Shown: positions 5,525-15,768, counted from the first letter of the stretch. The stretch: DNA of 64,000 bases from Halosolutus halophilus (GCF_022869805.1 NZ_CP094974.1:2666001-2730000), one strand, 5' to 3'. A program made the numbers and translations. The notes: generated by a model from the sequence alone, not told the origin.

Positions 5525-5661
5525 GCATAAGCTTTACCCTCTGATTATCACTAGTAATTAGCGAATGTGTCTCTGGCCAAAACGAATCGCCCGGAAACGC
5601 CGGCGCGAGCGTCGCGGGTAGATATCTACGCTTATTGTACTGGGCAGCGAACTCGCGGAGC

Positions 5662-8250
5662 GTGGAATCGGATCACACGGGCGACGATCGATGCTCGCTG
5701 TGTGGGTCACCGGTCGGTCCGGCAACCGAGGACCGGGGGACTGCGTTCTGTTCGACCGGCTGTCGAGATATTCACCGGACACTCGAGGCGGACGAGTCGA
5801 GCAGTAGTGACGACACTGCGCCGGCGGAATCGCCCTCCCGTGCGAGGGCGGCGGGCGATCGATCGGATCCCACGCACGAACGAGGCGAGGACCGTGACGG
5901 GGAGAGGACCGAGCGAACGTTCTTCCGGATCGACGGGATGCACACCGCCTCGTGCGAGTCGTTCCTGGAAGCGGTCGCCGAGGGCATAGACGGTGTGACG
6001 AACGCGGCAGCGAGCTACGTGACGGAGTCGATCCGGGTCGATCACGACCCCGATCGCGTCTCGAAGACGGACCTCCGGGACGCGCTGAGTACGGTCGGCT
6101 ACAACGCCTACCGCCGCGACGAGGCGACGGCCGGGGGCGACGGCGACGACGAATCGACCGGGACGACCCGGCGCGATCGCGAGATGACCGGGATGCGGAA
6201 ACGGCGCAGCGAAGACCTGTTCGAACTGCGGTACGTCGTCGGCGTCGTGTTCGGTTCGTTCCTGCTGGTGCCGTACGTCACGATCTTCTACCCCGTCTAC
6301 CTCTCGGCCTTTACCGACTGGTGGATGCTCCAGCTCTACGAGGACGCGTTCGGGACTCTCGACGGCCCCCTCCTGTTGCCGCTGTTCGCCGGATTGACGG
6401 GCGCAATCCTCTATCTGACCGGGAAGCCGCTGTTGCGCGGCGCGTACGTGAGCCTGAAACTCCGCCGGCCCAACACCCGGCTGCTCGCCGCGCTCACGAT
6501 CGTCAGCGCGTTCGTGTACGGGACGGCGGCGTTACTGCTCGGGCGAAACGACGTCTACTTCGACCTCACGATCCTCGTCGCCGCGCTGGTGATGGGCGCC
6601 ACGTTCTACGAAACGGCGGTCAAACGACGCGCGATGAACCGGCTCACGGACCTCACGGTGTCACAGGTCGACGACGCGCGACGGCTCGAGAGCGACGGCG
6701 CGACGACGTCGGTCGCCGTCGGCGACCTCGAGTCCGGTGACCGCGTGCTCGTCCGCGAGGGTGAGCGGATCCCGGTCGACGGCGTCCTCGCCGAGGGATC
6801 GTGTACCGTCGACGAGGCGATCGTCACCGGCGACTCGCTGCCCGTGACCAAACGCGCCGGCGACGAGGTCGTCGGTGGATCGATCGTGCGGGAAGACGCC
6901 GCCGTCGTTGCCGTCGGCGATCGAACGACGAGCAGCATCGATCGACTCATCGAGACCGTCTGGAACGTCCAGAGCGCAGATCACGGGGGCGAACGCGACG
7001 GGGATGCGCTCGCCGTGGTCGCGCTCCCGATCGTTCTCGTCGCCGTCGCGATCGTCGGTCTCGCCGGACTCCTCCGCGGCGCGACGGCGACGACGACGCT
7101 GCTTCCTATGTTACTGACCGTGATCGTCGTGTGTCCGTGGGCACTCGATCTCGCGACGCGGATTTCCGTCGGCCAGCACCTCCAGGCGGCGCTGGATAAC
7201 GGTATCGTCGTCTTCGACGAGAGCATTTTCGAGCGGATCCGGAACGTCGATACGGTCGTCTTCGACAAGACCGGGACCCTGACGACTGGCGAAATGACGG
7301 TGCTCGAGGCCCAGGGGCCGACCGACCTGTTACGAGCGGCCGGGGCCCTGGAACAGCGGAGTTTACACCCGGTCGCGACGGCGATCGAGTCGGCGTTCGT
7401 CGGCGACGACAGTGCCAGTCCCGCCGACGGGAGCGTGAGTGACGGTGACGGCAGTGGCGGACCCGATCGCCCCCGGACCGACGGCGGGCAGGCCGATCAC
7501 GAACGCGCCCACGAGATCACGGAGTTCCGGAGCCACGAGACCGGCGTCGAGGGGGTCGTCGACGGCGATCGACTCCTCGTCGGACACCCCGACCTCCTCG
7601 CCGATCGGGGGTGGTCGATCGACCGAACGATCGCCGATCGGGTCGCCAGCGCACGCGACTCCGGGCGGATTCCCGTCGTCGTCGGGCGCAACGGGTCGGC
7701 CGACGGCGTGATCGTCGTCGGTGACGAACCGCGAGCCGAGTGGACGGAGACGGTGACGACGCTCCACGATCGCGGCGTCGAAACCGTCGTGCTCACCGGC
7801 GACGATCGGGCGGCCACCGACGTCTTCCGCGACCATCCACACGTCGACCACGTCTTCGCGAGCGTGCCGCCGGATGGCAAGACGGCTGCGATCCGGCGGC
7901 TGTGCTCCGGCGGTCGCGTCGCGATGATCGGCGACGGGACGAACGACGCCCCCGCACTCGCCGCGGCCGACCTCGGACTCAGCCTCGGCAGTGGAACCGC
8001 GCTCGCCGCCGACGCGGCCGACGTCGCGATCGTCGACGACGACCTCGCGGCCGTCGATCGGGTGTTCAGGCTGGCGACGGCCGCACGGCGGCGACTCAGG
8101 CAGAACCTCGGACTGGCGCTGGGCTACAACGCGGTCGTGCTCCCGGTCGCGCTGGCGGGCCTCCTGAACCCGCTGGTCACGGCCGCTGCAGCCGTCGCCT
8201 GTACGCTTCTCGTCGTGGCGAACGGGTCACGTCCGTTGCTCCGGTCGTAG
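5662..8250 (+). CDS. TRASH-HMA-type heavy-metal P1B ATPase with CPW motif
   Basis: About 862 residues, a P1B-type ATPase exporting a soft metal across the membrane. Domain order: an N-terminal Cys cluster like a TRASH/YHS zinc finger (CSLCG...CSTGC, residues 10-40); an HMA-like domain near 90-160 whose metal loop is GMHTASC, so the usual CxxC has only one Cys; membrane helices; the actuator with TGDSLPVTK; a transport helix; DKTGTLTTGE with the phosphorylated Asp; an HP motif (SLHPVATA); and the hinge MIGDGTNDAPAL. The transport-helix motif is CPWALDLATR instead of CPCALGLATP, so one of two metal cysteines, the Gly and the final Pro are lost. GTG at 5662 is preferred: an AT-rich box near 5630 lies about 25 bases upstream, fitting a leaderless start; a TTG at 5635 is also in frame. 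Metal specificity is unknown; copper/silver is the default guess. Confidence 0.9.
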   Translation: MESDHTGDDRCSLCGSPVGPATEDRGTAFCSTGCRDIHRTLEADESSSSDDTAPAESPSRARAAGDRSDPTHERGEDRDGERTERTFFRIDGMHTASCESFLEAVAEGIDGVTNAAASYVTESIRVDHDPDRVSKTDLRDALSTVGYNAYRRDEATAGGDGDDESTGTTRRDREMTGMRKRRSEDLFELRYVVGVVFGSFLLVPYVTIFYPVYLSAFTDWWMLQLYEDAFGTLDGPLLLPLFAGLTGAILYLTGKPLLRGAYVSLKLRRPNTRLLAALTIVSAFVYGTAALLLGRNDVYFDLTILVAALVMGATFYETAVKRRAMNRLTDLTVSQVDDARRLESDGATTSVAVGDLESGDRVLVREGERIPVDGVLAEGSCTVDEAIVTGDSLPVTKRAGDEVVGGSIVREDAAVVAVGDRTTSSIDRLIETVWNVQSADHGGERDGDALAVVALPIVLVAVAIVGLAGLLRGATATTTLLPMLLTVIVVCPWALDLATRISVGQHLQAALDNGIVVFDESIFERIRNVDTVVFDKTGTLTTGEMTVLEAQGPTDLLRAAGALEQRSLHPVATAIESAFVGDDSASPADGSVSDGDGSGGPDRPRTDGGQADHERAHEITEFRSHETGVEGVVDGDRLLVGHPDLLADRGWSIDRTIADRVASARDSGRIPVVVGRNGSADGVIVVGDEPRAEWTETVTTLHDRGVETVVLTGDDRAATDVFRDHPHVDHVFASVPPDGKTAAIRRLCSGGRVAMIGDGTNDAPALAAADLGLSLGSGTALAADAADVAIVDDDLAAVDRVFRLATAARRRLRQNLGLALGYNAVVLPVALAGLLNPLVTAAAAVACTLLVVANGSRPLLRS

Positions 8251-8788: not shown

Positions 8789-9619
8789 CTAGAACAGTCC
8801 GGTGATGAACCCGCTCCCCATAATAACGAGGACGGCAGCGGAGAACGCGGGGAGGTACGGCGTGTACCGCTCGACGCGCTCCTCGTAGTGCTGATAGCCC
8901 GCGATCAGGAGCATCGTCAGACCGACGATACCGGCGATGACGGTGATGGCGTACGCGCTCATCAGTTCGACGCAGTAATTCGACCCGGCACAGAGGGCGA
9001 TGATCTCGAACTCCTCCTCGTGTGCGAATCCGAGGACGAATGCAAACCAGGCGATCCCGAGGAGGCCACGATCGGCGGCGTCGTCGAGACTATCGTGTGA
9101 GTGAGAGTGCCCACCGACGAACGGAATAGCCCCTTTCAGTCGGGACAACAATCCGCTGCCATCGTGCCCGTGTGAATGACCGTGATCGTGTGGGTGACCG
9201 TGGTGGTGGTCGACGTTGTGTTCGTGGTGATGATCGGCGCTGTGGTCGTGATCATCCTCGTGACTCCCGTGAGAGTGGCCGTGGAAGTACTCGCGGATGC
9301 CGAGGACGATGAGCAAGACGCCGGCCACGAGACTGACCGGCCCACCGATCTGGATACCACCGAGTATCGTAATCGGCTCGTTGACCTGCGTGAGGTTGAA
9401 ATACGCTTTCGCGTAGAAGAATACCCCCACCATCACGAGACTACTAACGAGGTGTCCGACGCCGATGATGAAACTCGCCGCGAATCCATACACCCACTTG
9501 TTCGTCCGGTCGAGCGCATACGACGCGGCGACTGGCCATCCGTGACCCGGTTCGATACCGTGAACGGCACCGAGGGCGACTGCACCGAGAAGAAGCCCGA
9601 AGGCTTCGTTGTGTACCAT
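8789..9619 (-). CDS. NicO/RcnA-like nickel-cobalt transporter
   Basis: A 276-residue membrane protein of the NicO (nickel/cobalt efflux-type) family. The first helix has the signature HGIEPGHGWPVAASY, and a later helix carries LGFAHEEEFEIIAL; both hold the His/Glu/Asp residues typical of the family. Between them (residues about 112-152) lies a cytoplasmic loop packed with His and Asp, HGHSHGSHEDDHDH and similar repeats, probably a metal buffer or sensor. About six hydrophobic segments are visible. Upstream, TTATTTATAC about 25-30 bases before the ATG at 9619 fits a leaderless transcript, and a small TAAC-GGTT-GTTA inverted repeat adjoins it. Export rather than import is the more likely direction, but this is inference. 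Confidence 0.88.
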   Translation of the reverse strand: MVHNEAFGLLLGAVALGAVHGIEPGHGWPVAASYALDRTNKWVYGFAASFIIGVGHLVSSLVMVGVFFYAKAYFNLTQVNEPITILGGIQIGGPVSLVAGVLLIVLGIREYFHGHSHGSHEDDHDHSADHHHEHNVDHHHGHPHDHGHSHGHDGSGLLSRLKGAIPFVGGHSHSHDSLDDAADRGLLGIAWFAFVLGFAHEEEFEIIALCAGSNYCVELMSAYAITVIAGIVGLTMLLIAGYQHYEERVERYTPYLPAFSAAVLVIMGSGFITGLF

Positions 9620-9905: not shown

Positions 9906-9919
9906 TTAGATAGATCTAA
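9906..9919. repeat. inverted repeat TTAGAT-AG-ATCTAA
   Basis: A perfect 6-bp inverted repeat with a 2-base centre. The same half-sites recur at 10167-10185. The half-site resembles DtxR-type (TTAGG-like) metalloregulator sites, which is inference. Confidence 0.4.
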
Positions 9920-10166
9920 CACCGGTGCGCATTCTGGATCGGACTTCACAAAGAGGTTGCACAGCCGGGGTACGCCCACTCTCTCGACGAGAACATGGAC
10001 TGATCGTTCATACTCACCACGTTTGCTTCCAGAGTAGTTCGAGATCGATATCCCGAGGCGATTCAAAGCCCGTTGAACTGCACACGTTCGTTACAGGATC
10101 GGATTCCTGATCGCCGCTCAGAAGATTTTCGACTCGTTCGAAATCTCGACTAGGCTCAATCAAAAT

Positions 10167-10185
10167 TTAGATGCGTCAAATCTAA
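10167..10185. promoter_or_regulatory. candidate operator TTAGAT-N7-ATCTAA before oxidase gene
   Basis: A perfect 6-bp inverted repeat with a 7-base centre, about 60 bases before the oxidase ATG. It overlaps an AAAATTTAG stretch that could act as the TATA box, so a bound regulator would block initiation. The repeated half-site at 9906-9919 supports a shared regulator; an iron- or manganese-responsive DtxR-family protein is the guess. Confidence 0.4.
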
Positions 10186-10245: not shown

Positions 10246-11502
10246 ATGCCATCGATAAATTACGATAGTGCAACAGAGGTCACAGAACTCCTCGAAGAGC
10301 GGCTTGTCAAGTCACTCGGTAGTGATACGAGCGTCAACCGCCGGACGGTGCTCGGCGGTCTCGGTGTCGCCGGGAGTGCAGCGTTAGGGGTTGGAAGCGC
10401 TCAGACGGGTGCCGACCCCGGGCACGATGACGACGAACACGGCACCTTCGGTGCCGTCGACGAATACCGTGATACGGACTTCGACCCCCACCAGTTCCTG
10501 ACGACGTTCAATACCGGAGCGAGCGGTCAAGAGTCCGTCCCGCAGCGAATCTACGAAGAGAATGGGAGGACCGTTCGGGAATTCGAGTTCACCGCAGTCG
10601 ACACGACAATAACGATCGCGCCGGGCATCGAGTTCGAAGCGTGGGCGTTCAACGGACAGGTTCCGGGACCGACGATCCGCGCCGTCGAGGGTGATCTCAT
10701 TCGAGTCAAATTCGAAAACTTCGGGCGCCACGCACACACGATCCACCCTCACCTGAAGAATCTCAACCCGGAAATGGACGGAATTCCACAGAACGGGCCC
10801 GGAGTACTCGATACGGATGAATCGTTCACCTACGAGTGGATCGCACAACCCGCCGGGACGCACTTCTATCACTGCCACTCGCTCCCGCTGAAGGAACACC
10901 TGCATCGCGGGCTCTACGGCACGATCATCGTCGACCCCGACCCCGAACGCGTCAGGGAAAATCCCCGCGACTACGTCAACTACCACGGACCGATCGACCA
11001 GGAGTTCCGCGAGCGACTCGTCGAGGAGGCGAAGAGCCGGAATCACCAGTACGCCGAGAACGACGCCGTCAACGAGATGGTAATGGTCATGAACTCGTTC
11101 GACACGAACTTCGACGGCGAGAACGAGGTGTACGCCGCGAACACGCGCGCCTTTGCGTACGGTGTCGGCGAAACTGACGCCGAAGGCAACTGGAAGGCGG
11201 GCCAGACGAAACGCCCCATACGGATCGATAAGAACGAACGACAGCGGGTGTACCTCACGAACGCGACGGAGTTCGATTTCATCAATTCGTTCCACACCCA
11301 CTCGCAGTTCTTCGATTACTACGACCACGGAACGACGCTGCTGCCGACGAGCAAAACCGTCGACACGATCATGCAGACCCAGGCCCAGCGCGGTATTATC
11401 GAACTGGATTATTCCGACCACCAGCCCGGGCTGTACATGTTCCACGCTCATCAGTCGGAGTTCGCCGAACTCGGCTGGATGAGCTTCTTCGAGGTGGTCT
11501 AG
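10246..11502 (+). CDS. two-domain multicopper oxidase, Tat-exported
   Basis: About 418 residues. A twin-arginine signal (NRRTVLGGLGVAGSAA, residues 26-41) directs export of the folded protein. Two cupredoxin domains follow. Domain 1 has HAHTIHPH and the type-1 loop FYHCHSLPLKEHLHRGLYG, with ligands Cys and two His; the axial position is Leu, as in high-potential laccases. Domain 2 has FHTHSQFF and MFHAHQSEFAELGW, with no Cys, so it supplies only trinuclear-centre histidines. This matches two-domain oxidases with the type-1 site in domain 1 (NirK/type-C arrangement). The ATG at 10246 gives a normal Tat leader. The stop abuts the ZIP permease start with no gap, so the two are coupled. Likely role: oxidation of a metal ion (Fe, Mn or Cu) or a phenolic substrate outside the membrane. 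Confidence 0.88.
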   Translation: MPSINYDSATEVTELLEERLVKSLGSDTSVNRRTVLGGLGVAGSAALGVGSAQTGADPGHDDDEHGTFGAVDEYRDTDFDPHQFLTTFNTGASGQESVPQRIYEENGRTVREFEFTAVDTTITIAPGIEFEAWAFNGQVPGPTIRAVEGDLIRVKFENFGRHAHTIHPHLKNLNPEMDGIPQNGPGVLDTDESFTYEWIAQPAGTHFYHCHSLPLKEHLHRGLYGTIIVDPDPERVRENPRDYVNYHGPIDQEFRERLVEEAKSRNHQYAENDAVNEMVMVMNSFDTNFDGENEVYAANTRAFAYGVGETDAEGNWKAGQTKRPIRIDKNERQRVYLTNATEFDFINSFHTHSQFFDYYDHGTTLLPTSKTVDTIMQTQAQRGIIELDYSDHQPGLYMFHAHQSEFAELGWMSFFEVV

Positions 11503-12753
11503 ATGGCTGACAAGACACCAGACACGACGACGGACGGTGGCGTGACGGCTGACAAAGAGGTCGCACAGCCACTCGGACTCCCGCGGTGGGTCTCCGCGTT
11601 GCTCCCTGTCGTGTTGCTCGTGCTCGTTCTGGGGGTGTTCGCGTTCACGTCCCCGCTCGCCGACGTTCAGAGTGGCGAACCGCTTCCGGACGTGACGGTC
11701 ACTCACGCCACGATGCCGAGCGACGAGACGGTCGTCCTTCACGTGACAAATAACGGCCCGGAGGAGGTCACGATCTCGCAGGTTCTCGTCGACGAAGCCT
11801 ACTGGAACTTCCAGGTCGAAGGAGCCGATGGTGACCGGACGCTCGAACCCCGAGAAAACGCTCGCGTCATCGTCCCGTATCACTGGAACCCGGGATGGGA
11901 CCTGGGCGTCGATCTCGTGCTCTCGGACGGCACGACGATCGGCCACGAGATCGAAGCGCCGCAGCAGTCACCCGGCTTCAGCACTGATGTCCTGTGGACG
12001 TTGGCGCTCATTGGACTGTTCGTCGGGGTGATTCCGGTCGCACTCGGGATGCTGTGGTTCCCATTCCTCCGAACGATGAGCGATCGTGCATTGCACGCCG
12101 TCCTCTTGTTTGCCGCCGGTGTGCTCGGCTTTCTCGCGTTCGATGCCGGGTTCGAGGCGTTCGAACTCGCCGAGCGAATCCCGGGCGCTTACGACGGTGA
12201 ACTGCTGATCGTCTTCGGCACGATCGGTGCGCTGTTGCTCGTGCAGGCGATCAGCGCGTGGCGTGAGGGACGTGCTGCTGGTGGTGACAGCCGAGCGAGC
12301 AGCGGGCTCTGGACCGCGTATCTCGTGGCCCTGGGGATCGGCTTGCACAATCTCGCTGAGGGACTGGCGATCGGAAGTTCGTTCGCACTCGGGCGGGTGT
12401 CCCTCGGCGCGTTCCTCGTCATCGGGTTCATGCTCCACAACGTGACCGAAGGTCCGGCGGTCGTCGCACCGGTGGCTCGGGATGAGCGCCCCGCATGGTG
12501 GCACTTCGCCGCGCTTGGCCTCCTCGCCGGCGCACCTGTCATCCTCGGCGGGTGGATCGGGAGTCTCGCCTACTCGCCGACGATCGGTGCGTTCTTCCTC
12601 GCGATCGGCGTCGGCGCGATCCTCCAGGTCGACTGGGAGATCGCCAGGATGGTTCGCGCCGCGGGCGGTCGAGTGGGAAGCGCCGCGAATCTGCTGGCCT
12701 TCCTGGTCGGCTTCGGCGTTATGTACGCGACCGATCTCTTCGTGGCTCTCTAA
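11503..12753 (+). CDS. ZIP family metal permease with extracytoplasmic domain
   Basis: A 416-residue membrane protein. Residues 1-28 are cytoplasmic, about 29-50 form an N-terminal anchor helix, and about 55-155 form a beta-rich extracytoplasmic domain (VVLHVTNNGPEEVTISQV) not present in ordinary ZIPs. The rest is an eight-helix ZIP transporter with the metal-binding motifs HNLAEGLAIGSS and HNVTEGPAVVAP in consecutive helices. ZIP proteins move divalent metals (Zn, Fe, Mn) into the cytosol. The ATG follows the oxidase stop codon directly and a halocyanin gene follows 22 bases later. The order suggests metal oxidised or handled by the exported oxidase is passed to this permease, by analogy with the yeast ferroxidase-permease pair. 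Whether the direction is import or export is not proven. Confidence 0.87.
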   Translation: MADKTPDTTTDGGVTADKEVAQPLGLPRWVSALLPVVLLVLVLGVFAFTSPLADVQSGEPLPDVTVTHATMPSDETVVLHVTNNGPEEVTISQVLVDEAYWNFQVEGADGDRTLEPRENARVIVPYHWNPGWDLGVDLVLSDGTTIGHEIEAPQQSPGFSTDVLWTLALIGLFVGVIPVALGMLWFPFLRTMSDRALHAVLLFAAGVLGFLAFDAGFEAFELAERIPGAYDGELLIVFGTIGALLLVQAISAWREGRAAGGDSRASSGLWTAYLVALGIGLHNLAEGLAIGSSFALGRVSLGAFLVIGFMLHNVTEGPAVVAPVARDERPAWWHFAALGLLAGAPVILGGWIGSLAYSPTIGAFFLAIGVGAILQVDWEIARMVRAAGGRVGSAANLLAFLVGFGVMYATDLFVAL

Positions 12754-12775
12754 TACGGGCCGCTCTTCCCCATCC

Positions 12776-13198
12776 ATGCCATCCCGTTTCTGTGATCGGC
12801 GGACGATCTTACGCCTCGGCGGCGCGGCACTTTCGCCGATCGGAATCGCCGGGTGTTTGAACAGACAGTCAGCAACCACTCAGATCGTTCTGATGACTGA
12901 TGGCTTCGGGTTCGATCCGAAAACTACGACGATCGAATCCGGACGGACCGTGACGTGGACGAACACGAGCGACGTCGATCACACGGTCACCGCCTACGAA
13001 GATACGATTCCGGAGGGCGCCGCGTACTTCGCGAGCGGCGGCTTCGAATCTGAACGCGCCGGGCGAACTCACCTGACCGAGGGTCTCGTTGCTCCGGGTG
13101 GCGAGTACGAGCACACGTTCGAAGAGTCTGGAACGTACGAATACTACTGCATTCCCCACGAAAGTTCCGGGATGGTCGGGGCAGTTCAGGTCGAATAG
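12776..13198 (+). CDS. halocyanin-like cupredoxin lipoprotein
   Basis: A 140-residue blue-copper protein. The N-terminus has a Tat/lipoprotein leader: CDRRTILRLGGAAL, then lipobox GIAGC with the lipidated Cys near residue 26, so it sits on the outer face of the membrane. The cupredoxin domain has the ligand set His in DHTVTA, then Cys-His-Met in YYCIPHESSGMVG at the C-terminus, complete for a type-1 site. Halocyanins carry electrons or buffer copper. Being third in the oxidase-ZIP cluster, it probably accepts electrons from or delivers copper to the oxidase. The ATG at 12776 is preferred because the leader then has the usual length; the longer open frame upstream overlaps the permease in another frame. 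Confidence 0.88.
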   Translation: MPSRFCDRRTILRLGGAALSPIGIAGCLNRQSATTQIVLMTDGFGFDPKTTTIESGRTVTWTNTSDVDHTVTAYEDTIPEGAAYFASGGFESERAGRTHLTEGLVAPGGEYEHTFEESGTYEYYCIPHESSGMVGAVQVE

Positions 13199-13273: not shown

Positions 13274-13438
13274 ATGTCCTGCAACGAGTGTGAACGCAAC
13301 GTTGAGAATGTCCTGAAGAATATCGGCGGAGTCCATCGTGTCGAAGCAGATCCTGAGTCGGGAAGAGTCGAGGCTGATGTGAGCGATGATGTCCTCGGGG
13401 ATGCCATTCACGACGCCGGATACGAGAGAAACGCTTAG
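13274..13438 (+). CDS. HMA-domain copper chaperone-like mini-protein
   Basis: 54 residues beginning MSCNECERNVENVL and ending HDAGYERNA, clearly an HMA (heavy-metal-associated) fold with its CxxC copper loop right at the start. Normal HMA proteins have a first strand of about 8 residues (such as ITVEG) before MSC. Here the frame is open upstream back to the halocyanin stop (13199) but has no start codon, and it reads ADLKSG before the Met. Either the first strand is missing or a frameshift removed it. The TAG stop (13436-13438) overlaps the stop codon of the convergent P1B ATPase (13435-13437). Likely role: copper delivery or a remnant of such a gene. Confidence 0.6.
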   Translation: MSCNECERNVENVLKNIGGVHRVEADPESGRVEADVSDDVLGDAIHDAGYERNA

Positions 13439-15768
13439 GCGACCTCTGCTTCTTTTCCACCGGACGCGTTCGTATCGACCGCAGCGGCATCCGATTCGAC
13501 GGTGAAGTCCGTGTTGAGATTCTCACCACGGAGCAACTGTCCCGCGAAACTGTTCGCAAGGACGACTGAGACGGACAGCACCATCGCTATCATTGCGAAC
13601 ACCGGATGGACGAGACCGGTGGTAGCCGCAGCGACGCCGATGCCGTTGAAACTGAATGCGGCGGCGAGGTTCTGCTTCGTCTTCCGGTAACTGCTCTTCC
13701 CGATTTCGTAGGCGTCCATTACCCCACGGAGGCGGTCGCCCATCAACACGATGTCCGCTGACTCGATGGCGATGTCCGTTCCTGCGCCGATGGCGATACC
13801 GATGTCGGCCTGCGTCAGTGCGGGTGCATCGTTGATGCCGTCCCCGACCATCGCCACACGTTCATCACCCTCCTGTAATCGCCGTATCTCGTCGCGCTTG
13901 TCGTCAGGAAGCACATTGGCCATCACCCGGTCGATACCGACCGTCTCCGCGACAGCGTGGGCCGTTCGTTCGTTGTCGCCCGTAATCATAACGGGGGTGA
14001 TACCCACCTGCTTCATTCGGTCGATGGTCTCTGTGGCGTCGTCCTTCATCGGGTCTCCGATGGCGACGAGACCGATCACTTTGCCATCGACTGCTACGCA
14101 GACAACGGTGTAACCTCGTCCCTGGAGTCTGTCGATGTCGTTCCGGGCGGTAGTCGTGTCGATACTTGCCTCGCCCAGCCACCCGGATTTGCCGACGAGA
14201 ATCCGTTCCTCCGCGACTTCCGCTCGAACACCCTTGCCGGTCACGCTCTCGAACTCATTCGGGTCGGGGTATTCGACGCCCCGTTCGTCCGCGTGGTCGA
14301 GGATTGCGTCCGCGAGGGGATGTTCACTGAACGCCTCTGCACTAGCCGCGTGACGAATCACGTCGGTCTTGTCGTCACCGAACGTTACGACCTCCTCGAC
14401 GGCAGGTTCGCCCCTGGTAATCGTTCCAGTCTTGTCGAGAACGACGGTATCCACGTCCTGGAATATCTGGAAGGCGTCACCGCTTCGCATCAAGATGCCT
14501 CGGTTCGCGGCGAGACCGCCTCCGCGGATCAGTGCCAGTGGCGTCGCCATCCCGAGTGCACAGGGATAGCCGAGGACGAGAACGGCCAACGCCGCGAACG
14601 TGCCACGCTGGATGGTCGGCCCCGTCCCGAACGGATCGCCCGACCAGACGGCAGGAACCAGAAGCCAGAACAGGAACGACGCGGTGGCAACGGTAAGGAC
14701 GCCGGGAACGAAATACTTCAGCACTCGATCCGCTAACTGTACGACATCGGGTTTCATTGTCCGCGCCTCTTCGATTTGACGAGCGACCTGATTCAGGAAG
14801 GCATCGTCGCCGGTCGCGGTCACTTCCACAAGGAGCGTCCCAGTCTCGTTGACGCTGCCACCGATTACATCGTCTCCCGGTTCCTTGTCCGCAGGAACAG
14901 ACTCCCCTGTGGCGACGCTTTCGTCCACTGCGGTCTCGCCATCGACGACGGTGCCGTCCACCGGAAGGCTCTCCCCCGGTTTGACGCGCACGCGATCGCC
15001 CTCCGTAAGTTCACTTACGTCGACTTCCTCGACCTCACCGGCACGGACACGCCGGGCGGTATCTGGCTGGAGGGCAAGTAGATCCTGCACGGCTCGTGAG
15101 GCTCGTGTACGGACAATGAGGCTCGTGTATTCGGAGAGGATGTGATACGTGGTGATGAACACGGAGACGGCGAAGAAATGAACCGTGGGGAACCCTGGGA
15201 AGAGGAACAGACCGAGGAAGCCACCAAGCAGTCCGGCGAAGGCTCCGGCTTCGAGTAGGACGTGCTGGTTGAAGATACCACGCTGGAGGCTATTGTACGC
15301 TTTATCGATGATGTACCAGCCCGGCCCAAACATCGTCCCCAGAGCGAGGCCCAGAGTCACGAGGGCCATCCAGCGCGCCTCCGACTCGAAGGACCCTCTG
15401 TGGAAGATCATAAACAGCATTAATCCGGCGGTCACGAGCGACGCCGCACCTGCGAGGGTTAGTCGCCTCTTTGCCTGCTTGACCCCCGCCTGCTGTTCCT
15501 CGAACCGCTTCTGTTTGTCCGGGTCGCGAATCGTATAGCCGAGGTCGCGGAGCGTATCCTTGAGTTCGACCTCACTCAACGAATCGTCATACCAGATTTG
15601 CACCTCTTCGTGGGCGAGGCTGACGTTCACCTCCTCGACGCCTTCGGTTCGCTCATACGCCGTACGGATGCTCTCGGCGCAGAACGAACACGACATCCCG
15701 CCGATGACGTACCGGACTTGTGCGGTGCCCATCGCAACCCGTGTTTGGGCTGAAGCGGTGAAAGGCAT
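13435..15768 (-). CDS. copper-type P1B ATPase with YPC motif
   Basis: 777 residues. An N-terminal HMA domain with GGMSCSFCAESIRTAYE (Cys pair near residues 26-29), a linker, membrane helices, actuator ATGESVPADK, a transport helix, DKTGTITRGE, SEHPLADAIL, GDGINDAPAL, then two last helices and an acidic tail. Export of Cu+ (or another soft metal) is expected. The transport-helix motif reads LGYPCALGMATPLAL: the first Cys of the canonical CPC is Tyr, while the second Cys and the following ALG-MATP remain. The last helix has MVLSVSVVLANS in place of the usual MxxSS. Starts at 15768 (ATG) or 15732 (ATG); either keeps the HMA domain. It is divergent from the ArsR-type regulator gene with 94 bases between, a usual arrangement for a regulated exporter. 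Confidence 0.92.
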   Translation of the reverse strand: MPFTASAQTRVAMGTAQVRYVIGGMSCSFCAESIRTAYERTEGVEEVNVSLAHEEVQIWYDDSLSEVELKDTLRDLGYTIRDPDKQKRFEEQQAGVKQAKRRLTLAGAASLVTAGLMLFMIFHRGSFESEARWMALVTLGLALGTMFGPGWYIIDKAYNSLQRGIFNQHVLLEAGAFAGLLGGFLGLFLFPGFPTVHFFAVSVFITTYHILSEYTSLIVRTRASRAVQDLLALQPDTARRVRAGEVEEVDVSELTEGDRVRVKPGESLPVDGTVVDGETAVDESVATGESVPADKEPGDDVIGGSVNETGTLLVEVTATGDDAFLNQVARQIEEARTMKPDVVQLADRVLKYFVPGVLTVATASFLFWLLVPAVWSGDPFGTGPTIQRGTFAALAVLVLGYPCALGMATPLALIRGGGLAANRGILMRSGDAFQIFQDVDTVVLDKTGTITRGEPAVEEVVTFGDDKTDVIRHAASAEAFSEHPLADAILDHADERGVEYPDPNEFESVTGKGVRAEVAEERILVGKSGWLGEASIDTTTARNDIDRLQGRGYTVVCVAVDGKVIGLVAIGDPMKDDATETIDRMKQVGITPVMITGDNERTAHAVAETVGIDRVMANVLPDDKRDEIRRLQEGDERVAMVGDGINDAPALTQADIGIAIGAGTDIAIESADIVLMGDRLRGVMDAYEIGKSSYRKTKQNLAAAFSFNGIGVAAATTGLVHPVFAMIAMVLSVSVVLANSFAGQLLRGENLNTDFTVESDAAAVDTNASGGKEAEVA

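Follow-up and report, generated by a model that had tools for sequence, protein, structure and literature searches.

Why should the gene of an exported multicopper oxidase stand directly against that of a metal permease, and which metal would such a pair handle? The question is raised by a stretch of 64,000 nucleotides of Halosolutus halophilus DNA (the window, in whose coordinates we number), where three co-directional genes form a single cassette. The first, MCO (10246-11502, + strand), encodes a Tat-exported two-domain multicopper oxidase of 418 residues with complete T1 and trinuclear copper ligands; the second, ZIP (11503-12753, +), encodes a ZIP-fold metal permease of 416 residues with an N-terminal TM helix and a beta-domain; and the third (12776-13198, +) encodes a halocyanin, a lipoprotein of the plastocyanin family (140 residues), which is an accessory member. 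An initial annotation, whose coordinates proved right, saw here an oxidise-and-transport system for Fe, Mn or Cu, on the analogy of ferroxidase-permease uptake in yeast. As it had claimed, the first two genes abut with zero spacing, the TAG stop of MCO (11500-11502) being followed at once by the ATG of ZIP at 11503; 22 bp separate ZIP from the halocyanin gene.

Closer inspection bears out what that annotation had said of each protein: a Tat-exported two-domain oxidase, a ZIP permease with an extra beta domain and a lipid-anchored halocyanin. The oxidase has two cupredoxin domains (Pfam Cu-oxidase_3 and Cu-oxidase_2), a T1 site in domain 1 formed by H164, C210 and H218 with L223 in the axial position, and eight trinuclear-site histidines (H167, H169, H209, H211, H350, H352, H400 and H402). 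The axial position is Leu in 83% of 120 aligned relatives and otherwise Met; every other T1 and trinuclear ligand is invariant in all 120, including the H209-C210-H211 motif of domain 1 (10870-10878, +), which sets the T1 cysteine between T3 histidines. The export signal is a twin-arginine motif, NRRTVLGG, without lipobox (R32 and R33, 10339-10344, +), and Tat-type motifs recur in 26 of 32 haloarchaeal and 63 of 79 bacterial relatives. In haloarchaeal MCOs the n-region before this signal is unusually long, with about 30 conserved residues (DYxSAADVTERLEQRL-like; 10246-10340 in the window). The closest solved relatives, 7rab/7rac (348 aa, E 7e-105) and 3gdc (E 1e-67), are also two-domain MCOs but lack the haloarchaeal N-terminal extension. 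We take 3gdc to be the enzyme of Arthrobacter sp. FB24, where a DtxR-family gene runs divergently from the plasmid-borne MCO-ZIP pair; a literature search on the FB24 copy returned nothing relevant. A nitrite reductase of the NirK type was considered and rejected, since MCO misses the TIGR02376 equivalog cut-off (67.8 < 296.3).

The permease is a divergent ZIP in its predicted structure. Its match to Pfam Zip (PF02535; 27.1 bits, E 3e-6) stays under the gathering cut-off of 35.1, so the assignment is carried by the fold and by two HNxxEG motifs. The AlphaFold model (mean pLDDT 85) comprises a leading TM helix (residues 28-49), the beta-domain (64-150) and an eight-helix core, for which the best PDB matches in Foldseek are BbZIP entries. 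The metal motifs are HNLAEG in TM4 (H282-G287; 12346-12363, +), with H282, N283 and E286 invariant, and HNVTEG in TM5 (H312-G317; 12436-12453, +), with N313 and E316 invariant and H312 conserved at 98%. BbZIP of Bordetella bronchiseptica shares the eight-helix fold (TM 0.66 normalised to BbZIP) and both motifs at about 24% identity, but it has neither the N-terminal TM helix nor the beta-domain, and the residue aligned to its E240 differs in the window protein. The beta-domain (11692-11952, +) is predicted to be extracytoplasmic, occurs family-wide with invariant Q93 and W128, and has no conserved Met or His; for this last reason, and because the Foldseek similarity is weak (TM ~0.5, E 1e-3 to 3e-2), we rejected it as a PCuAC-like copper chaperone. 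Haloarchaea also have a related ZIP, about 45% identical, that has no beta-domain and no MCO neighbour (loci L067-L074); a DtxR-family gene precedes it in 7 of the 8 loci examined, and L213 has a similar layout together with the operator described below.

The halocyanin combines a plastocyanin-family T1 copper domain (Pfam Copper-bind, 69.8 > 21.2) with a predicted lipid anchor, an RR signal being followed by the lipobox IAGC; its score of 51.3 falls under the stricter NCBIfam halocyanin cut-off of 93.8.

Are these genes held together elsewhere? Full-length ZIP relatives are present in 39 of 292 haloarchaeal genomes, and MCO relatives are present in the same 39, plus one genome with a truncated MCO. 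In all 32 haloarchaeal cassettes inspected, MCO lies immediately 5' of ZIP. A ZIP alignment scanned against bacterial and archaeal genomes retrieved at least 590 relatives; among the best 80 of these, inspected for neighbours, MCO is directly 5' of ZIP in 79 of the 80 bacterial loci, the remaining one lying 220 nt from a contig end. A Mantel test shows that the distances among the MCOs closely track those among the ZIPs (r = 0.97 for haloarchaea, 0.82 for bacteria); in 2000 permutations no correlation came as high. The pair is found in Halobacteria, Chloroflexota, Deinococcota, Pseudomonadota, Gemmatimonadota and further phyla, and many copies are plasmid-borne. In both groups, haloarchaea and bacteria, the two genes are thus all but inseparable, and this pairing gives good support to the view that they act as a functional unit. 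A few copies appear broken or cut: ZIP is split between frames in L066 and has a stop codon close to the contig end in L010 and L075, and at G278:C1:1318968-1319693 MCO matches residues 1-241 only.

The halocyanin is a looser companion. A cupredoxin/halocyanin gene follows ZIP in 23 of the 32 haloarchaeal cassettes and is missing from nine, one of which (L075) ends at a contig edge, and we rejected it as an essential member on these grounds. Downstream of the bacterial pairs we looked for a halocyanin-type gene and detected none; some actinobacteria have a Rieske protein gene in its place. Thus, the expectation that the three genes are conserved together holds for MCO and ZIP and holds less well for the third.

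What controls the pair? Comparing the promoters of MCO cassettes revealed a palindromic operator, TTAGAYnnRTCTAA, which precedes MCO in 27 of the 32 haloarchaeal cassettes against 0.27 expected from the remainder of the same sequences. The site corresponding to it in the window is TTAGATGCGTCAAA (10167-10180, one mismatch), in the MCO promoter region. A perfect palindrome, TTAGATAGATCTAA (9906-9919), lies farther upstream, between MCO and a NicO-like gene; the 5.06 Mb genome has just one other perfect site. With up to one mismatch allowed, the genome holds seven sites: the two in the 9906-10180 region, one directly before a DtxR-family gene (L188:2183-2863, - strand), one each at a GDT1 and an ArsP_2 transporter gene, and two without an obvious metal gene. 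In bacteria 40 of 87 loci have the core TTAG-N6-CTAA before MCO, where 0.68 would be expected and control patterns gave 0-2, and it often stands next to an MntR/DtxR gene. Ten further cassette genomes contain 18 perfect sites, and the reversed control pattern is absent from them; the 17 sites examined belong to MCO cassettes, DtxR or DtxR-GDT1 operons, ArsP_2 genes and ZnuA-type ABC binding proteins. Across 145 haloarchaea drawn evenly there were, by our own sum, about 160 perfect sites versus about 20 control sites, and 26 of the 29 inspected adjoin GDT1, DtxR, ZnuA-type, ArsP_2 or ZIP genes. The cassette promoter carries, in short, a conserved operator that it has in common with Mn genes. 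In DtxR and GDT1 promoters the operator is preceded by an AT-rich box, and in most ABC-importer promoters such a box comes after it; MCO promoters are mixed, and so we dropped the attempt to read the direction of regulation from operator-TATA geometry.

The NicO-like gene of the window (8789-9619, -) encodes a protein with a long His-rich loop that scores just below the Pfam NicO cut-off, and 286 bp separate the start of this gene from the perfect MntR-type operator upstream, so that the gene may be part of the cassette's regulon. In several haloarchaea (L189:3090-4313; L195; L231), genes for ArsP_2, or "arsenic efflux protein", likewise have an MntR-type operator before them, which suggests that the substrate of this family may be Mn and not arsenic.

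The regulators encoded nearby point to the metal. Within 4 kb of the pair there is a DtxR-family gene at 10 of the 32 haloarchaeal loci and at 16 of the 80 in bacteria; the one in Sinorhizobium scores 239 against the NCBIfam model for the MntR equivalog, whose cut-off is 153. The best solved relatives of the regulator in the organism's own genome include SloR and ScaR, which we take to be Mn sensors, and SloR ranks above IdeR. Iron sensors of the DtxR family have Met10 and Cys102, the two positions that, as Guedon and Helmann reportedly found, determine selectivity for Mn versus Fe. In the linked regulators the C102 position was readable in 36 cases and is D or E in every one, never C; the M10 position was readable in 28, of which 27 have D and none has M. 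Moreover, the GDT1/UPF0016 members that have been studied all transport Mn2+ (PMC7380456), and the DtxR-family protein SirR of Halobacterium represses, depending on Mn(II), both its own gene and genes of Mn(II) uptake (PMC3600143), a haloarchaeal precedent for the control proposed here, although MCO, ZIP and halocyanin are not among the described members of its regulon. Taken together, the operator, the Mn-sensor residues, the GDT1 link and the SirR precedent favour Mn, with Fe second. The three candidate metals of the initial annotation can be ranked in this way, copper being disfavoured by the regulator family.

We put at about even the chance that the cassette is a metal-uptake operon under MntR-type (DtxR-family) control, most likely for Mn(II), with an extracellular metallo-oxidase. 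When intracellular Mn is low, the regulator's grip on the TTAGAYnnRTCTAA operator would alter and the operon would be expressed. The ZIP protein would then import a divalent ion, and the Tat-exported oxidase would act extracellularly, next to the transporter's entrance, either removing readily oxidised competitors such as Fe(II) and Cu(I) or processing the substrate metal itself. We infer that clearing competitors is the likelier task, rather than feeding oxidised metal to the permease, because ZIPs take M2+: their import normally concerns divalent ions, and oxidation of the transported metal would work against its uptake. The halocyanin, or the Rieske protein in some actinobacteria, could serve as an optional redox partner.

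Could the metal be iron instead? MCO would then be a ferroxidase and ZIP would move iron under a DtxR/IdeR-like iron regulator, a reading that we consider unlikely although it survives best among the alternatives. DtxR-family operators also serve iron, and the TTAG-N6-CTAA core resembles DtxR boxes; ZnuA-type proteins, for their part, may carry Zn, which also counts against the choice of Mn. A VIT1/CCC1 gene is found close to the FB24 copy, and the Salarchaeum copy has iron transporter genes in its vicinity. Ferroxidase-permease pairs do exist, namely Fet3-Ftr1 and ferroportin-ceruloplasmin (PMC11817551). However, the linked regulators have carboxylates exactly where iron sensors have Met10 and Cys102, and the regulon includes the GDT1 Mn exporters. 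The yeast analogy drawn in the initial annotation is itself only half apt. Like the cassette, Fet3-Ftr1 couples a multicopper oxidase to a permease for metal uptake, but Fet3 is a three-domain MCO and Ftr1 belongs to another permease family, with REXLE motifs, whereas the cassette combines a ZIP fold, a two-domain MCO and a bacterial/archaeal Mn-type regulator. We looked for an Ftr1-type REXXE motif in the window ZIP sequence and found none. With a ZIP in place of Ftr1, Fe3+-style channelling is not implied.

Copper has the advantage of a published proposal. In ammonia-oxidising archaea an adjacent MCO-permease pair was reported and proposed to take up copper (PMC7785015), and in Nitrososphaera viennensis both genes, MCO1 and its permease PERM_b, are up under Cu limitation (log2 FC 0.81 and 1.33; PMC7785015), an observation that weighs against Mn. 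From its published description, that pair too joins a two-domain MCO with a T1 axial Leu to a ZIP-family permease for which oxidation followed by import was suggested; the proposed metal is copper, however, and neither an MntR-type operator nor a halocyanin is described there (PMC7785015). By this account MCO would oxidise Cu(I) to Cu(II) and ZIP would import it. The setting of the window cassette also speaks for copper and against Mn, since copper-type P1B ATPases and a short HMA ORF surround it, and halocyanin is itself a copper protein. Yet CopA, ArsR and the HMA ORF are not conserved beside haloarchaeal cassettes, both the operator and the regulators linked to the pair belong to the DtxR/MntR family, which senses Mn or Fe, and the beta-domain offers no conserved Met or His. 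MCO has no Met-rich Cu(I) segment, with eight Met in 418 residues and no Met-rich run, and misses the family cut-offs of both CopA (copper_res_A, 84.8 < 478.95) and CueO (42.7 < 525). We hold copper uptake to be rather improbable.

The copper-type neighbours have peculiarities of their own. The HMA/CopZ-like ORF (13274-13438, +; 54 aa from the Met of MSCNEC) is possibly a remnant: it lacks the first strand, and so may be a decaying CopZ. It overlaps by 4 bp the end of the convergent CopA-type gene. The flanking P1B-type ATPases (5635-8250, +, and 13435-15768, -) have VVCPWAL and LGYPCAL instead of CPC, and these altered CPx motifs may reflect an unusual metal specificity.

Might the system work in the opposite direction? 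ZIP could export Mn or another metal, or MCO could oxidise excess Mn(II) outside, with a logic similar to that of ferroportin and ceruloplasmin. The operator does precede the Mn exporter family GDT1, so control could run either way, and it is common to ArsP_2 exporters as well; many plasmid-borne copies sit beside P1B ATPases and CDF transporters. Against this, ZIP proteins are generally importers, the operator also stands ahead of ABC importer genes, and DtxR-family proteins usually repress when metal is present. Efflux or detoxification thus seems to us a poor bet, like copper uptake. A plain copper-resistance operon we reject outright, given the unconserved CopA, ArsR and HMA neighbours, the missed cuprous-oxidase cut-offs and an operator that is not of copper-regulator type.

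Returning to manganese uptake, how much of it is new? The initial annotation had not recognised a known system; an MCO-permease pair with a copper proposal was already in print (PMC7785015), although the pair appears to have been characterised by nobody. What is known is the adjacency and the copper version in ammonia-oxidising archaea; what is new here is the conserved MntR-type operator. In the searchable literature we found neither the near-obligate MCO-ZIP pairing across domains nor such an operator, and a search on an MCO-ZIP-DtxR link gave nothing relevant. For iron in eukaryotes, the coupling of an oxidase to a permease is textbook knowledge; in prokaryotes it is, to our knowledge, uncharacterised. 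The oxidise-and-transport idea is partly supported. Somewhat more tentatively than for the uptake operon itself, we envision an undescribed Mn acquisition system of archaea and bacteria, in which an extracellular MCO works in obligate partnership with a ZIP importer, both controlled by MntR, and oxidation serves as a step of selectivity or channelling. A hint from an independent source is that in Pseudomonas putida GB-1 intracellular Mn is higher in Mn-oxidising cells than in non-oxidising mutants (PMC3798386), as if Mn oxidation and intracellular Mn were linked.

The pair and operator shared across phyla turn vague annotations ("multicopper oxidase", "metal transporter") into a testable Mn hypothesis. 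They bear on the role of the MCO-permease pairs of ammonia-oxidising archaea, and on why bacteria make Mn- and Fe-oxidising MCOs at all. If the hypothesis is true, many MCOs of unknown purpose would gain a physiological role in Mn homeostasis.
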